Below the pieces are notes generated by a model. It was not told the DNA's origin. It worked only from the letters and a program-made list of their open reading frames with translations, and searched no databases. This document shows, in pieces, positions 42,163 through 49,758 of a DNA stretch of 64,000 bases. Both the position numbers and the translations under genes were made by a program. Numbering within the stretch: position 1 is the first letter of the stretch; each line of letters begins with the position of its first letter. Origin of the DNA: Linderina pennispora (taxonomy: Eukaryota > Kickxellomycota > Kickxellomycetes > Kickxellales > Kickxellaceae); the NCBI RefSeq assembly GCF_002104995.1, contig NW_024468250.1, positions 1,178,001-1,242,000 of the forward strand. Direction: 5' to 3'.

Positions 42163-45100
42163 ATGGTTCGCGCTTCGATTCTTTCTATCATCGCCCTCTC
42201 GGCCGCGGTTCACGCCAGCACCTACGAGTCCAACACGGATGCCGTTGAGTCCACCTCTGTCCCGGCTACCAGCGTCACTCCGACTTCCTCTGTCGCGGAG
42301 ACCACTTCGGTTTCGTCTGTTGTCCCGACCCTATCTTCTCTCGAGGAGACCACCGAGGCCACCACCGAGGCCACCACTGAGGAGACCACTGAGGAGACCA
42401 CTGAGGAGACTACCGAGGCTACCACCGAAGAGACCACCGAGTCGACTACTGAGGAGACCACCGAGGCCACCACTGAGGAGACCACCGAGGCCACCACTGA
42501 GGAGACCACTGAGGCTACCACCGAAGAGACTACCGAGGTCACTTCTGAGGAGACCACGGAGGTCACTTCTGAGTCTACTTCTGAGGAGGCTACCGAGGCC
42601 ACTTCGTCTGAGGCTACTTCTGAGGAGACTACCGAGGCCACTTCGTCTGAGGCCACTTCGGAGGAGACCTCTGAGGAGACCTCTGAGGAGATCTCTGAGG
42701 AGACCACCGAGGCCACTTCTGAGGCTACTTCGGACGAGACTACCGAGGCCACTTCTGAGGAGATCTCTGAGGATACAACCTCATGCGAGAGCACCACCAC
42801 CGACTGCTCGACTACTGAGGAGTCTTCTACAGAAGAGTCCTCGTCTGCCGACGAGTGCCACGGTGACTGCAGCACCGATGTTGAGACCGTCACCGAGACC
42901 ACCCCGTGCGAGCCCACCACCGTCACTGAGACCATTGTCACGACCCCGTGCCATGAGTGCGAGCCGACTACCGTCACCACTGTCTACACTGTGACCCCGA
43001 CCACCGAGGTCCCGTCGTCGGTCGAGTCCACCTCGGAGACCACCACCCCGTGCGAGCCCACCACCGTCACCGAGACTGTTGTCACGACCCCGTGCGACGA
43101 ATGCGAGCCGACTACCGTCACCACTGTCTACACCGTGACCCCGACTACTGAGGTCGAGTCCACCACCCCGTGCGAGCCTACTACCGTCACTGAGACTGTT
43201 GTCACGACTCCGTGCCATGAGTGCGAGCCGACTACCGTCACTACTGTCTACACCGTGACCCCGACCACCGAGGTCCCGTCGTCGGTCGAGTCCATCTCGG
43301 AGACCACCACCCCGTGCGAGCCCACCACCGTCACTGAGACTGTTGTCACGACCCCGTGCCATGAGTGCGAGCCGACTACCGTCACCACTGTTTACACCGT
43401 GACCCCGACCACCGAGGTCCCGTCGTCGATTGAGTCTTCGTCCGAGACTACCTGCCCCGCTGAGGTTGTCACCGTGACCGACGCTGACTGTGTTGAGACC
43501 GTCACCAATGACGTCGTTGAGACCGTCACTGCCAGCGGCAAGGACTCGACTGTCACTGAGACCATTGTCAAGTCGGGTGAGGGTGCCGTCGTTACTGAGA
43601 CCATCAGTGCCGAGGTTCTCGTCTCGATCGAGGACTGCACCACCGAGTACGTCACTGAGACCGTCCCGGGCTCTGACATCTGCCCCACCCAGACCGAGAC
43701 TGTTGGCACAACCACCACTGTTGTTGTTACCAACGAGAGCGAGCTCACCAACTACGTCACTGAGACCGTCGCCCAGACCACTGGTGGCGCCGAGCAGACT
43801 GTTACTGTCACTGTCGAGAACACCGTCCCGGCTGCCGATGTCACCGTGACCGAGGCCGTGACCGAGACCTGCGAGGGTGAGGATGCCACCGTCACTATCC
43901 CGGGCGCTGCTGGCGAGACTGTTACCGTTACCAACGCTGTCCCGACCACGGTCACTGTCGACAACACTGTTACCGAGTACCAGGAGACCCACACCGCCCC
44001 TGCTCAGACTGACATCAACACCGTCACTGTCGCTGGCTCCGACGTTGTCGTTGAGGAGACCAAGGAGGTCACCATCCAGGAGGTTTGCGATGAGGAGGTC
44101 ACCGTCACTGAGACCCGCGAGGAGGACGTCACTGTCTCCCAGACCATCGAGTCCACAAACATCGTCACTGTCCCGACTGACGTTGTCGTCCCGACCACCG
44201 TCTACTGCGAGAACGTCGCCACCGAGACCGTCCAGAACGACGTGACCGTCACTGTCCCGATGGTTGCCACCGAGACTGTCCTCAGCACCAACCAGGCGAC
44301 TGCCTACTACCCTGTGTACGAGACCATCGTCCAGGATAACACTGTCACCCAGACTGTCACCCACGTCGTGGACACCACCGTCACCAACGTCCAGACGGTC
44401 CTGGTCGGCGGCGAGACTAGCGTCGTCCTGAACACTGTTACCCAGACCGTGCCGAGCGAGACTATCACTGTCACTCAGGTCCAGGAGGAGACTGAGGCGT
44501 GCGAGGAGGATGTCATCGTCACCGTGACCGAGGCCGTCACCGAGACCCGCAAGGAGGATGTCACCGTCACTGTCTGCGACACTACCCCGAGTGAGGTTCT
44601 GCCCACCAGCACGACTGCCACCACCCCGTGTGAGCCGACCACCGTCACCAAGACCATCGAGACCACCCCGTGTGAGGAGTGCGAGCCGACTACCATCATC
44701 ACCACCATCGTGGAGACCCCGTCGTCGGTTGAGTCGTCGTCGGAGACCACTACCCCGTGCGAGCCCACCACTGTGACCTCGACCATCGTCACGACCCCGT
44801 GCGAGGAGTGCGAGCCGACCACCATCACCACCACCATCGTGGAGACCCCGTCGTCGGTTGAGTCGTCGTCGGAGACCACTACCCCGTGCGAGCCCACGAC
44901 CTACACCACGACCTACACCACCACCCCGTGCCCGGTCTGCGAGCCGACCACTGTGACCACTGTTGTCACGGAGACCCCGTCGGCTTCGGAGGAGTCGTCG
45001 GAGGAGCCCTCGTCGGAGGAGCCTACTGAGTCGTCGGAGGAGTCTGTCGTCTCGTCGGAGGAGTCTGGTGTCTCGTCGGAGGAGCCCGCTGAGTCATCAG

Positions 45101-45435
45101 AGGAGTCTGTCATCTCGTCGGAGGAGGTTGTCTCTTCGTCGGAGGAGTCTGCTGAGTCGTCGGAGGAGTCTGTCGTCTCGTCGGAGGAGGTTGTCTCTTC
45201 GTCGGAGGCCGCTTCGTCTGATGCCGCTTCGTCGGAGGAGGTTGTCTCGTCTGAGGAGCCCACCACCGAGGAGTCTGCTGCTTCTACTGCTGAGGAGACC
45301 TCCGAGGCTACCTCCGAGGCTACCTCTGACGAGCAGACCACCGAGGCTACTACTGAGGCCACCACTGACGTCGATGAGTCCACTGGCTTCGAGTCGTCGG
45401 CCCCGGCCACCAGCATCACCGCTGCTCTCTTCTAA
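42163..45435 (+). CDS. Secreted Ser/Thr/Glu-rich repeat protein (wall or adhesin-like)
   Basis: 1090 residues, one exon. A signal peptide (MVRASILSIIALSAAVHA) precedes three kinds of repeat. Residues about 60-210 are ETTEATTEETTE-type acidic Thr repeats. Residues about 245-425 hold four near-identical units with TTPCEPTTVTETVVTTPCHE, then CEPTTVTTVYTVTPTTEV. Residues about 820-940 hold three related Cys units. Residues about 945-1030 are SSEESVVSSEE repeats. The middle is Val/Thr-rich (TVTETV). Such Ser/Thr density implies heavy O-glycosylation, as in fungal wall proteins and flocculins. The C-terminus (SSAPATSITAALF) lacks the long hydrophobic tail needed for a GPI anchor, so secretion or disulfide/covalent wall attachment is likelier. 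Codons are strikingly uniform (GAG, ACC, ACT, GTC). The long open frames on the opposite strand are shadows of this bias. Confidence 0.8.
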   Translation: MVRASILSIIALSAAVHASTYESNTDAVESTSVPATSVTPTSSVAETTSVSSVVPTLSSLEETTEATTEATTEETTEETTEETTEATTEETTESTTEETTEATTEETTEATTEETTEATTEETTEVTSEETTEVTSESTSEEATEATSSEATSEETTEATSSEATSEETSEETSEEISEETTEATSEATSDETTEATSEEISEDTTSCESTTTDCSTTEESSTEESSSADECHGDCSTDVETVTETTPCEPTTVTETIVTTPCHECEPTTVTTVYTVTPTTEVPSSVESTSETTTPCEPTTVTETVVTTPCDECEPTTVTTVYTVTPTTEVESTTPCEPTTVTETVVTTPCHECEPTTVTTVYTVTPTTEVPSSVESISETTTPCEPTTVTETVVTTPCHECEPTTVTTVYTVTPTTEVPSSIESSSETTCPAEVVTVTDADCVETVTNDVVETVTASGKDSTVTETIVKSGEGAVVTETISAEVLVSIEDCTTEYVTETVPGSDICPTQTETVGTTTTVVVTNESELTNYVTETVAQTTGGAEQTVTVTVENTVPAADVTVTEAVTETCEGEDATVTIPGAAGETVTVTNAVPTTVTVDNTVTEYQETHTAPAQTDINTVTVAGSDVVVEETKEVTIQEVCDEEVTVTETREEDVTVSQTIESTNIVTVPTDVVVPTTVYCENVATETVQNDVTVTVPMVATETVLSTNQATAYYPVYETIVQDNTVTQTVTHVVDTTVTNVQTVLVGGETSVVLNTVTQTVPSETITVTQVQEETEACEEDVIVTVTEAVTETRKEDVTVTVCDTTPSEVLPTSTTATTPCEPTTVTKTIETTPCEECEPTTIITTIVETPSSVESSSETTTPCEPTTVTSTIVTTPCEECEPTTITTTIVETPSSVESSSETTTPCEPTTYTTTYTTTPCPVCEPTTVTTVVTETPSASEESSEEPSSEEPTESSEESVVSSEESGVSSEEPAESSEESVISSEEVVSSSEESAESSEESVVSSEEVVSSSEAASSDAASSEEVVSSEEPTTEESAASTAEETSEATSEATSDEQTTEATTEATTDVDESTGFESSAPATSITAALF
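42898..43435 (+). repeat. Cys-containing coding repeats, four units
   Basis: Four highly similar DNA units of about 120-140 bp, each encoding a CEPTTVTETxVTTPCxECEP module. They start near 42901, 43045, 43165 and 43315. One unit is shorter because it lacks the PSSVESxSE linker. Related units recur at about 44628-44962. Likely a site of copy-number change. Confidence 0.75.
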
Positions 45436-46351
45436 GGAGACAACGAGTCTTAGTGGCCCGTTGCTGAAGGCTGCATCTTAGAGCTGTGGTGCGCAATCCT
45501 GCGCAATGCTACTCTTGTAAAATCGTTGCGATTTTTGTTTCTACAAGATTCCCCTCCCTCCCACTTCCCCTTTTCTCTGGTTATCTAACGCACAACAACT
45601 TGTTCTAGGATGAAGGCATAATTGTTTTCCCTTTTGTTTCTTTTTGTTTCTCTTTCAATACTACAACTGGCTTATTAAAAATTTCCTACTCTGTGGATAC
45701 GGTGCAGCTGCTCTGCATCTTTATCTTTATCTTTATCTTTATCTTTACCTATATATAAGATTTTATAGTCCAAAAAGTGTCCGACCGTCCGCTAGAACCT
45801 TTTTTAATTCGTTAACAAGTAAAACTCTTAAGCTTCAACACGGGTTTGAGTGACTTGCTCTGTAAACTCCCTTTGGTTTTGTGCGGCATCTGACCTCACC
45901 GGTGAAACCAGGGTGACAAGTTATTGTTGTAGTGGTCACAGGTCTCTACTGGATATCTCCATTGGTTCAGCGCAAGAGCTGCTCTCAGTATCGGTCGACC
46001 TGATAACTTCCATAGTGTCATCATGGTGGTCATCACTGGCTGCGCAACACTCTTAGGATATTTATGAGCACCTATTGAATAAGGCCATGTAGCTCTTCTA
46101 ACAGTCATGCAAAGTTTGTGGGTTTATTTTACAAATTAATTTGTCATATGAATATGCATAAGCAGTAGTATTTGGGCCACAATGGACCCAGTCTGTATAG
46201 ACTGATTCAAGAGACTGTATCAGTGCTAAGGGCCCCAAGAACCATGCAAGCCAGAAAATCTTTAATAAAAAGTTCTTAATGCTATGCATACGCAATACAG
46301 CAAAACTGAACAGCATCATTTCTCTTCTTACTTGCCTATTGAATTTCTCAA
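45436..46351. other. Intergenic, upstream of the Fanzor locus
   Basis: 900 bp holding the 3' flank of the wall protein, a CTTTAT microsatellite, and the upstream flank of Fanzor. A short stem (CAGTCT-GTAT-AGACTG, 46189-46204) is visible. I found no clear terminal inverted repeats or target-site duplication marking the edge of a mobile element. Confidence 0.45.
45719..45747. repeat. CTTTAT microsatellite
   Basis: Nearly five tandem copies of CTTTAT between the wall protein and the Fanzor locus. Confidence 0.85.
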
Positions 46352-48851
46352 ATGAATATTACCCGCAGCACTACTGTCATAAAGACATCACTTGGTGGTA
46401 TTGGCTTCCGTGATTCTATGTTGCCCCGCCTAGAGCAATTTGTACACAGCGTCAATATCATCAAAGAGCATACATACTTGCTTGCACGATGGATATTACT
46501 CCATCAACTAGCTGACGATGATGCCTTTGACCCTGCAATATTTGTGAAAAAGGGGTTTTTTCGTTCAATTTATTTATTTATTTATCGCAACCTGAAGGCG
46601 AAGACTGTCATATCTGCCGAGGATTTCGTCAACCGGAAGGACCGGCCAGAACTGTCGAGCGCAGATTTCGGTGATGTAATTAGATATCATATTTATGATT
46701 ATCTATTACATAATGGCGATATCGAGCTACATGGCGTACGTGAAATGAATCAGGTAGCGACATATGTTGACACCGAGCTGCTAACAGCATACAAGAACAA
46801 CATTGTGTTGCACTATGGCACTTGCCTACAGCGGATTCTGGCCAAATTGATTGATATTCGCAGCCGCAAAACCACACTGCACAGTACAATGGGCAATGTG
46901 TCCAAGGCTGAGTTAAATAATGCATGCCAAGTGTGTATTTATACACCTGCACAGAAGCTCCGCCAGGCAGTTGCCTCTAGGCGCCCTGATCTCAGTGTGC
47001 TCACCCCACCGATGCTTGCAATCTACAACAAGCTGGCACCAGTCCTTAATGCCTATGATGCCAAGTACAGATTCGCTAAAGACAGCCGATACTATGATGC
47101 CAAGGTAAATCCACTTAAGCATCTGCGTGCATACATTCGCCTATGCCAGCTTATCGAGAATGAGCAGCTTGGCAAGTCTCCTCCCCAATGCTTGCCTCTG
47201 CGGACATCATGGATCCCAGGCCATGTGCGCTTAGACAAGCAAATAATCAAGCGGGTGTTTGTTTCGAAAACCCGTGAGCAGGTTACCAAGATCAACGCAG
47301 CAAAGAGGGCAGCAACAGAGGCAAGGAAAGCAGCAGAAAAAAAAGCGAAAACTTAGCCAAGAAGGCTGCACGCGAAGCAGCGAAGATGCCATCAGATGAA
47401 ACAGAGGCCACTGCAGCAACTGCAGCAGTAGCGGCTGATTCGCTTGCTGCTGCATCGGCGGCAGCAGCAGACACTGTTGCAGCACTTAACAATGCATATG
47501 CACCAGCACCCCCAGTCTGTGCACACGACCCGGTCCAAGGGATCATACAATCTGTGTGGGATGTATGGGGCCGGGTCGCAGATCTAACATCAAAGCCATT
47601 TAAGGCGCATGGTGATAGAAAATTCCACGGGATGGTGACAACAGATGGTGTAACGATATGCATTTTGTTACAAGACAAGGTACCTAAGACTGGTGCTGCA
47701 GTAGATGCTGATGCTACAGCTGACTGTTGCTGCAGTAGATGCTGATGCTACAGCTGACTGTTGCTATATCCACCAAATACCACAGCCAGAGCTGCAGAAT
47801 CTGAAAGGCCGCTGTGTATTCATCGATCCAGGTCGGGGCGATTTGCTATACATGATGCACGAAAATAGCAGCAATGGGAAAGAGGGTGAAAAAAATGCTC
47901 TACCGCTACACACGGCAGCAGCGCAATAGGGAGCTCAAGCTGCGCCACTATGACAGGATTCGTTGGGATACAAAGGATCAAGTCCCAGAAGATGCTGTCC
48001 GCAGAGCAGAGGCTGAGCTTTCCAAGCACTGCTGCCGGAGCCTTAGCCCAGCAAAATTCCGTGCCTACGTTGCTGCCCGTGCATCTGTGCGGTGTGTCCT
48101 AGCACCGTTTTATGCCAACACGATGACAGCGCGAAGGCTACTAGAGCAGCAGCCCACTAAGTCAAACAAGCAGCATCAGAGGCGCTGGAAGGTCCATCCA
48201 GGTGTCAGTACCAGTCCCAAGGTGTACCCACTTCACCGCAAGCTGCGCCTTGATTCATTCATGAACCAGGCCCGTGCAGACCACAGGCTTGCCGCGAAAC
48301 TCCGGAGCAAGTTCGGTCCAGACCCAGTGCTGATCATGGGCAATGGGAGTGCGCCGATGGCCCGGCACCATGCGCCGATTCGTGGCAAGGGATGGCGCGA
48401 CAAGTTCAAGCACCATGGCTTTGAAGTCTATCTGATCGACGAATTCCGGACATCGTCGGTGTGCCCGTTCTGCTGCGATAAGTCACTGCAGACATTCCGG
48501 CATGTTCCCAATCCGCGGCCCTACCAGAGATCGAAGAACCCAACTGTGAAGTGCCATGGCCTTCTCCGCTGTACAAGCGAGTCATGTAAGCGGGCCATGG
48601 CACAATACAGGCGGGCCTATTCGTCTCGGCTCTTGAACCGCGATCTCGCAGCAGTTCTAAACTTCAGGCTCATTTTCCAGTCACTCTTTGATTCAGGCAG
48701 AATTCCTGAACGGTTCTGTCGTTCTACGGCCATTGCTGCCGATACTTCTGGCACCACCCCTGCAACAAAGAACCCGCACAAGAGGCGTGGACCAGCTGCA
48801 GGTGATTCTGCTGCCAGCAGCAGCGAACCAGCCCTGAAACGTCTGCGCTGA
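46352..48851 (+). CDS. Fanzor: TnpB-like RNA-guided nuclease (frame broken)
   Basis: Eukaryotic relative of TnpB and Cas12, known to cut DNA guided by an omega-RNA. About 830 residues across three frames. The N-terminal part (MNITRSTTVIKTSLGGIGF to about 47350) is the recognition and wedge region. A Lys/Ala-rich basic linker follows. RuvC-I is CVFIDPGRGDLL (Asp at 47825). Then come YRYTRQQRNRELKLRHYDR and VLIMGNGSAPM. RuvC-II is VYLIDEFRTSSVCPFC (Glu at 48441). A zinc-finger region has CxxC, CHGLLRC and SESC. RuvC-III is LLNRDLAAVLNFRL (Asp at 48642). The C-terminus KNPHKRRGPA...PALKRLR looks like a nuclear signal. The frame is broken by A8 at 47337-47344 (one base short), a 34-bp tandem duplication, and A7 at 47889-47895 (one base too many). 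All three catalytic residues remain. Either sequence errors plus a real duplication, or a young pseudogene. Confidence 0.88.
47694..47761 (+). repeat. 34-bp tandem duplication inside Fanzor
   Basis: A 34-base unit (47694-47727) is repeated exactly at 47728-47761. Because 34 is not a multiple of three, the second copy shifts the frame and brings in a stop at 47743-47745. One copy fewer keeps the frame into the RuvC-I segment. Confidence 0.9.
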
Positions 48852-49758
48852 GCAGGCAATCAAGATGGGAAATGATCATGATCACCATTGCACCAACAAC
48901 CATCCGACACGTTCAAATGACCGGTTCGCCGTGATGCCCTTATCGACGTGTCAACCCATGCTGACTAGCAGCCGAGCTCGCATCGCGAGCAGAGCAATTC
49001 TAGTATCTTCCATGTGAATATAGCCTCCACCAAGCTTGGGCATGAGCGCGATGATGCCAGTCAGGGATTCCATCATGACATCTGTCAGCTTGGCGATTCC
49101 TTTACCCTGAATACGCTTTTCACATAGAGATGATGGCAAGTGCTCACCACCCCTTCAGCCTGACACAGCTGTCTATTTTCTCCAACGACAGGTGCTCGTC
49201 TCCTAGAGCTATTTAGGCAATCTGTTGTCTTCGGAGCACGTTAAGGGCGAAGGATGCGCTGATTTTCATATGACGGTGCAGCAGCTCTTACATATTTTTC
49301 GCGCTCTCCCAAAAACTACCGGAGGAAGTGGTCTACCTCTTTGGTACCCCGTTTCACATGCGCATCCGCAACAGTCATATAGAGGAGTCGTTGCCACTGC
49401 ATGTGAAAGCAGCCGTGTAGCTTGAGTTTTCTATGGAAACCAGGCACCAAGCAAGCCAGAACCCAAGCACGTTCCTTCGCATTTAGTGCACGTGAGAAAG
49501 TTCAGAAAGGAAATGGTCAAAAATGCCGCGCCCATCGCTGCTACTGTCTCTCCACTGCTTCCCCGCTGCACTCCATTTAGCAACGCAGGCAAGCAGCAGC
49601 CCCGTTTAAAAGGAGTGCGCCGCGCGTTGGCAATGGCATTGGTAAAGGACAATAAGAAACCCCGCCCGGATACAACTCTCTTTCCTTGTCTCTATCTGTA
49701 TTTTTTTTTTAGCGTTTCAGTTCTCCCTTCCACCTACACATTTACTCCAATTCAAACA
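48852..49758. other. Fanzor 3' flank and SCP2 promoter
   Basis: The first part is the 3' flank of Fanzor, where omega-RNA is usually encoded in these systems. A perfect hairpin GCTCGC-ATC-GCGAGC lies at 48976-48990. A 62-codon minus frame (48951-49139) has plausible composition but no recognised family. The right end is the promoter of the SCP2 gene (TTTAAAAGG near 49605 and a CT-rich leader). Confidence 0.4.
48976..48990. other. Perfect 6-bp stem hairpin 3' of Fanzor
   Basis: GCTCGCATCGCGAGC folds with a GC-rich 6-bp stem and a 3-base loop, 125 bp past the Fanzor stop. It could belong to a structured 3' RNA, but a hairpin this short can occur by chance. Confidence 0.3.

Follow-up and report, generated by a model that had tools for sequence, protein, structure and literature searches.

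A degenerate Fanzor1 gene carried by a multicopy, non-autonomous Helitron in Linderina pennispora

Results

A frame-broken Fanzor1 gene lies at the locus

Judged from its sequence, segment 46352-48851 of the window, by which we mean the whole stretch of 64,000 nucleotides analysed here, encodes a Fanzor1 protein that is spread over four overlapping frame pieces instead of a single frame (Table 1). The + strand carries IDPG, YRYTRQQRNRE, DEFRTSS followed by CPFC, CHGLLRC, NRDLAAVLNF and a basic tail, and thus every motif named in the original prediction for this locus. The series IDPG, RTSSVCPFC, CHGLLRC and NRD conforms to the pattern D-X(n)-[TS][TS]xx-C4 zinc finger-RD of Bao & Jurka 2013. 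Among 30 copies, the DNA around CHGLLRC (48529-48588) is almost invariant, with a pairwise difference of 0.4%, below that of the remaining RuvC/zinc part.

Table 1 Coordinates of the features of the element and its gene within the window
Feature	Position	Strand	Source
Whole element: non-autonomous Helitron with broken Fanzor1 gene, 3.29 kb	45718..49003	+	
(ATCTTT)n repeat at the 5′ terminus	45717..45747	+	TRF
5′ terminal block common to the Rep/helicase Helitron, 93% over 75 bp	45741..45815	+	
Fanzor1 N-terminal piece, frame 2	46352..47356	+	ORF list, PDB-sequence match
Ala/Lys-rich middle piece, frame 1; variable minisatellite at its end	47278..47745	+	
34-bp tandem repeat, 2.3 copies; itself a frame-break region	47688..47765	+	TRF
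RuvC-I piece, frame 2; catalytic Asp codon 47825-47827	47705..47929	+	
C piece, frame 3: C4 zinc finger between RuvC-II Glu and RuvC-III Asp codons	47856..48851	+	
Slow-evolving 3′ non-coding block, candidate omegaRNA scaffold, overlapping the Helitron 3′ end	48889..49003	+	
Helitron 3′ hairpin GCTCGC-ATC-GCGAGC	48976..48990	+	
3′ terminal CTAG (CTRR type)	49000..49003	+	
Host TA, then the 20 nt that would act as guide of the window copy	49004..49025	+	

Comparison with PDB sequences matched the C piece (47856-48848) to Parasitella parasitica Fanzor1 (E 1.6e-44) and to SpuFz1 (5.5e-26), the N piece (46355-47353) to Parasitella Fanzor1 (E 2.3e-26), and an intact sister copy of 870 aa (L075) to the same protein at E 1.1e-81. 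These matches to characterised Fanzor1 proteins lie far above chance and thus establish homology; the predicted Fanzor identity is borne out in both halves, as Fanzor1. In the profile check suggested with that prediction, scores stayed below the cut-offs of PF07282 (17.5 against 26.3 bits) and NF040570 (14.7 against 100 bits); a PF07282 profile search of the genome returned 0 matches at E 0.001. Since both models are of the TnpB/Cas12f type and not Fanzor1 models, we did not treat these failures as decisive for Fanzor1, and the assignment rests on the PDB sequences rather than on a Fanzor profile.

The catalytic residues were also retained as predicted. L075 residues D530, E735 and D802 align with SpuFz1 D383, E541 and D606 (counted along the chain), which are named as metal ligands in PMC10432273. 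The window has all three: its RuvC-I Asp is the counterpart of D383 by way of the intact-copy alignment, and the RuvC-II Glu and RuvC-III Asp codons were read directly at 48441-48443 and 48642-48644. D530 and E735 never vary in the 27 proteins aligned, and residue 802 is Asp in 20 of them and Asn in seven; the RuvC-III Asp is therefore not invariant among these relatives.

The window copy has decayed

Set against seven intact copies (94-97% identity), the copy in the window has lost its frame three times: in an A-run near 47.34 kb, where a minisatellite is rearranged at 47.69-47.77 kb, and in a second A-run near 47.89 kb. Introns were ruled out as the reason for the divided frame, as the sister copies are single-exon; the pieces are thus damage and not exons, and with three breaks the copy is inactive as it stands. 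The suggestion that this or a sister copy may be active hence falls for the window copy, which is dead, and stands for its sisters, among which intact ORFs with D/E/D would be candidates. The minisatellite at 47688-47765 encodes a stretch rich in Gly, Ala and Asp that separates the middle part from RuvC-I, and its length varies among the intact copies at the same place.

The gene belongs to a large family

The predicted origin of the window in an early-diverging fungus agrees with a phosphate transporter encoded in the window, which shares 97% identity with a partial protein of Linderina pennispora (65% covered) and 92% with one of L. macrospora, and so points to the genus Linderina. Linderina is a saprotroph. 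The picture of a lone locus did not survive a search of the 26.17-Mb genome, where at least 124 matches to the C piece and at least 123 to the N piece were found, 121 candidates being scored for each. Among the matches listed, Fanzor pieces lie at at least 180 places, of which the window copy is one: 57 with both halves, 64 with the N part only and 59 with the C part only. The proposed search for intact sisters succeeded, as one shared open frame of 860-894 aa was present at nine of the 57 both-half places (matches listed). All seven intact ORFs that were read keep D/E/D, and their median pairwise dN/dS is 0.31 (21 pairs). Reported figures of about 150 copies for CMe-1A (PMC3627910) and of up to hundreds (PMC10711439) mean that a copy number of this order is not unheard of.

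A first homologue search, in which the 7999 candidates sharing most words were scored, gave one match. A search with the RuvC region gave 95, with Fanzor homologues in Coemansia, Dichotomocladium, Rhizopus, Mucor and Thamnidium. Our literature search found no paper combining Fanzor with Linderina or with Kickxell.

The element has Helitron ends

The ends of the element were mapped with the help of sister loci, 30 on the upstream and 30 on the downstream side. In the window, comparison with an unoccupied site places the last host base, A, at 45717 and the TC start of the element at 45718. The same TC after a host A was found in 19 of the 22 readable loci among the 30 upstream ones (hand count), where (ATCTTT)n is frequent; the eight loci left out comprise three behind a Helitron, one nested, one ambiguous and three that fall short of the end. 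At the 30 downstream loci the 3′ terminus reads CTAG (27), CTGG (two) or CTTG (one), and TA directly follows the element at all 30 of these occupied junctions. The 3′-end pattern, with up to three mismatches, occurs 213 times in the genome and 0 times in a reversed control. With TC at the 5′ end and a hairpin followed by CTRR at the 3′ end, the termini are, on these sequence grounds, Helitron termini. The ORF list contains no Rep or helicase ORF inside the Fanzor element; with Rep and PIF1 found only in a separate Helitron, the element is at most a non-autonomous Helitron member.

Insertion occurred between A and T without target duplication, both in the window compared with its counterpart on C99 and at L060, L051, L032 and L045, for which both flanks were read in both versions. 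Directly upstream of the window element, at 42163-45435, lies a gene for a long Ser/Thr/Glu-rich repeat protein, which, to judge by its sequence, is likely to be secreted or part of the cell wall.

The state of these copies bears on whether Fanzor is a passive passenger, captured by Helitrons and without a role in their spread. In its favour, 48 of the 57 both-half places have no shared frame of at least 860 aa (matches listed), and there are shortened copies with both ends (for example L045, L051, L054 and L060), which means that elements lacking an intact gene either spread or decayed once inserted; the 213 3′ ends against at least 180 Fanzor-bearing places favour it weakly, 180 being a lower bound. 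The median dN/dS and the D/E/D retained in seven of seven intact copies oppose it, and a selection of intact copies is depleted of stops but not of missense changes. We consider a passive passenger quite unlikely.

A related Rep/PIF1 Helitron abuts family 5′ ends

The original prediction had noted that no partner transposase was visible. The annotations of the portion of the window examined include none, but a Rep/PIF1 Helitron with related ends is present elsewhere in the genome. A profile search placed Helitron_like_N at seven places (13 matches), and locus L074 (C157:13700-23699) holds one such Helitron, with Helitron_like_N and PIF1 domains spread over several frames, which leaves its intactness unproven. 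Over 75 bp, the 5′ ends of this Helitron and of the Fanzor element share 93% identity (score 151; the highest score among 500 shuffles was 45). At the 3′ end of the Helitron, the hairpin GCTTGC-ATC-GCAAGC is followed by ATGAGACTG and CTAG; here the two elements score 33 against a best shuffle of 31, so that their 3′ likeness rests on the hairpin design and not on the score. Because 5′ end and hairpin design are shared, the Rep/PIF1 Helitron is a likely mover for the Fanzor elements.

The 3′-end pattern of this Helitron (up to three mismatches) occurs eight times, at L074 and on C1, C2, C23, C112, C171, C212 and C157 (1115k), and all eight occurrences abut a 5′ end of the family. The element behind is a Fanzor element in six cases (by reads or coordinates) and carries other cargo on C2; the end at C157:1115k adjoins an unresolved element bearing the family 5′ end. 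Contig C5 repeats the upstream flank (94.7% over 300 bp) and carries a sister Fanzor but no Helitron, a pre-insertion state from which it follows that, there, the Helitron came second and settled at the 5′ end of an element already in place. For the Rep copy at C212:572k, the supposed 3′ end was not present in L080.

Two further arrangements were considered and set aside. A composite Rep/helicase-Fanzor unit spreading jointly was rejected, as the Fanzor partners are not one clade: starred branches force at least three label changes on the partner tree, and the partners of L033 and L048, whose Helitron parts are 99.2% and 98.3% identical to the L074/L039 Helitron part, differ by roughly 5-9% (sum of branch lengths). 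Integration of a circle through homologous recombination within the 75 bp that the elements share found no support in the one readable case, L083, where CTAG is followed by the bases of the resident Fanzor element.

Other occurrences of the terminal block and of Rep were also seen. L081 (C2:649600-649760) represents a further cargo family with the same 5′ terminal block, not Fanzor-like where read, and L011, whose flank resembles L081, seems to have inserted into a copy of this type. A single divergent Helitron_like_N match at C68:198243-198650 (L067) lies in an open frame of 1989 aa and possibly represents an intact second Helitron lineage.

Taken together, we are highly confident that the window element is a decayed member of a non-autonomous Helitron family of high copy number that carries a single-exon Fanzor1 gene, and this confidence extends to the family identity, the Helitron ends, the A/T insertion, the copy number, the intact copies with low dN/dS and the related Rep/PIF1 Helitron.

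Unoccupied counterparts differ next to the insertion point

A search with the downstream flank of the window led to C99, which matches at 91% and lacks the element across the junction: C99 reads CTCTGCA-TCTCTTCC and the window CTCTGCA-[element]-TATCTTCC, the second base after the insertion point being C in C99 and A in the window. Two more searches, with 18 upstream and 25 downstream flanks, gave nine further readable unoccupied places; their matches were the best 40 of 71 and the best 40 of 64 candidates, and more unoccupied sites are possible. Dropped from the count of ten were C156, the counterpart of L054, which is itself occupied, and a match on C2 to the 5′ flank of L038, a divergent repeat without a clean reading. 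L002 (mismatched 5′ flank) and L005 (5′ match limited to 9 nt) are weak but were kept, and at L026, L030 and L021 the junction was placed from the 3′ side alone. Ten places occupied on both versions served as the control, including the L003 pair, aligned with a gap by eye, and the L025/C175 pair, counted from a 100% flank-search match; a search with the flank of L016 found two occupied places and no further copies. Many short contigs, among them C5, C31, C53, C99, C106, C203 and C221, are about 91-99% identical to the long-contig parts compared, and the assembly seems to include second haplotypes or near-identical duplicates.

All ten unoccupied sites showed a mismatch within the first 10 nt 3′ of the junction, and three of the ten in nt 11-20. 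Ordinary haplotype divergence, with such differences arising by chance or in faster-diverging flanks, would account for the control, in which five of ten pairs have a first-10-nt mismatch too, and would fit L032 and L045, whose unoccupied sites are divergent overall. Several figures nevertheless make it unlikely: the ten of ten has a conditional P of 9e-4 (0.009 after leaving out L002 and L005), near-junction mismatches affect 13 of 90 sites, compared with 17 of 368 at other positions (Fisher p 0.002, excluding L045), none of the six pairs with matching 5′ flanks is mismatched within 9 nt on the 5′ side, and the TA itself is changed in five of the ten unoccupied sites (TC, TG, TT, TC and AA) against none of the ten control pairs. 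Given the control value of five in ten for the first 10 nt, only the TA part is clearly special. Guide positions 1-8 are mismatched in all five TA-bearing unoccupied sites, against five of ten in the control. As for a terminal TA belonging to the element itself, the unoccupied sites are evenly split, TA being present at five and absent from five.

The TA excess may also arise from insertion itself, if this rewrites the second base to A and leaves an element end that is effectively CTAGTA, without any removal of cuttable alleles by Fanzor. Rewriting predicts both the changed TA at unoccupied sites and its constancy in occupied-occupied pairs, the mismatches in guide positions 1-8 are not clearly above control, and rewriting explains the TA excess as well as a loss of cuttable alleles does. 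On the other side, the second base is not A at six of the eight Rep/PIF1 Helitron junctions, a two-base target replacement would be required every time, and L005 differs at the first base. At the one Rep/PIF1 junction with a pre-insertion counterpart, the first 45 nt are unchanged; as TA stands on both versions, this pair tests junction damage and not rewriting. We regard rewriting as a serious possibility, although we would sooner doubt than accept it.

Between L045 and L088 (C139 / C31), an inversion lies within the first 45 nt 3′ of the junction: a stretch of 37 bp that starts inside the would-be guide target and runs beyond it has opposite orientations in the occupied and the unoccupied allele (score 59, best of 500 shuffles 23), which could be a repair scar.

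The 3′ block is a candidate omegaRNA

In 30-nt steps across 48889-48993, the 3′ block differs by 0.9-3.5% between pairs of 30 copies, compared with 10-11% for the steps just upstream (48844-48888), mostly 4-16% for the 5′ non-coding part (26 copies) and mostly 0.4-6% for the RuvC coding part. It is thus as slow as constrained coding sequence and no slower than much of the RuvC part. The predicted fold, with a z of -1.34, is only slightly better than that of shuffles, and the two weak Rfam matches (E 0.021 and 0.67) fell well short of the gathering threshold. Part of the block must act as the Helitron end; the remainder fits an omegaRNA scaffold, for which it is a candidate. The putative guide position adjoining it (49004-49025) follows from the SpuFz1 and PpFz1 literature, and its bases were read directly.

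A tentative model for the spread of the element

A model on which we are nearly evenly divided, leaning slightly to caution, joins these features. The Rep/helicase of the Rep/PIF1 Helitron would move the Fanzor elements in trans, and intact copies would supply both the nuclease and an omegaRNA, the latter from the conserved 3′ block, with the host DNA just 3′ of each copy as guide. Insertion would split A^TA, so that an occupied site reads AGTA and an unoccupied one ATA beside the guide match; A^TA, whole only at the unoccupied site, would serve there as the TAM, and cutting at that site would favour spread or retention of the element. For TnpB, cutting of the unoccupied site has been proposed to favour the element (PMC10432273). 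The TAMs described for PpFz1 (ATN; PMC11423790) and SpuFz1 (CATA; PMC10432273) imply that the Helitron target A^TA holds a plausible TAM that insertion splits, and ATN fits A^TA directly. FoHeli1 and FoHeli2 of Fusarium oxysporum insert at TNAT^A (PMC5148889), which is also readable as A^TA, so the coincidence need not be due to Fanzor.

A stronger role, that of a homing nuclease for the Helitron, with A-TA as both Helitron target and TAM and the 3′ flank as guide, appears to us distinctly improbable. Under homing, the unoccupied allele, alone in having both an intact TAM and a guide match, would be cut and then filled from the occupied allele. The surviving unoccupied alleles would be those with a changed TAM (five of ten) or with changed near-guide bases (the other five), one of them altered by the 37-bp inversion inside the guide target. 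The TA difference at unoccupied homologues may be a trace of such homing on empty alleles, a reading with which, given the control, the rival explanations compete.

Relation to known Fanzor elements

The account in PMC10432273 describes the biological role of Fanzor as unknown and reports that no transposase was found inside Spu-1 elements. In the Linderina genome, intact copies occur together with a Rep/helicase Helitron that has related ends and is a probable partner, and with 30 insertions whose would-be guides were read; natural unoccupied counterparts of some insertions make Fanzor cutting of the empty site testable with defined substrates. As far as our searches show, three things are new: the genus of the host, a matched Rep/PIF1 partner that sits at family 5′ ends in eight of eight cases, and the natural occupied/unoccupied pairs.

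Fanzor1 on Helitrons was already known from CRe-1, CRe-2 and CRe-3 of Chlamydomonas (Bao & Jurka 2013, PMC3627910). As those elements are described there, they and the Linderina element share a Fanzor1 gene carried by a Helitron that lacks a Rep/helicase of its own, termini resembling those of Helitrons of the same genome, high copy number and a surplus of 3′ ends. Unlike them, the Linderina element has one exon rather than five or ten, inserts at A^TA rather than after TTTT, shows no duplication at the sites read, resides in Linderina, and has a Rep/PIF1 Helitron whose 3′ ends abut family 5′ ends in eight of eight cases. Tandem Helitrons have been reported elsewhere (PMC5148889); in the FoHeli4 example of that source, one Helitron precedes the 5′ end of another by 2 bp, a single case compared with the eight in Linderina. 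CMe-1A of Cyanidioschyzon merolae is likewise a large Fanzor1 family with some intact genes, but is given no element class in the same 2013 account (PMC3627910), whereas the Linderina family has Helitron ends and unoccupied sites.

SpuFz1 of Spizellomyces punctatus (PDB 8gkh; PMC10432273) resembles the Linderina protein in that the counterparts of its three catalytic residues are kept. Its element differs: SPu-1 is described with 33-bp terminal inverted repeats and putative TA duplications (PMC3627910), unlike the Helitron ends and the absence of duplication at the ends read in Linderina. The best solved relative is PpFz1 of Parasitella parasitica (PDB 9cf0-9cf3), which has the same order of catalytic motifs and a cyclophilin-binding FRI domain (PMC11423790); the Ala/Lys-rich middle segment of the Linderina protein, with its Gly/Asp minisatellite, is unlike PpFz1. 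Fanzor1 proteins of Coemansia (e.g. P0001 and P0003) and Dichotomocladium elegans (P0002) belong to the same protein family, at 29-46% identity.
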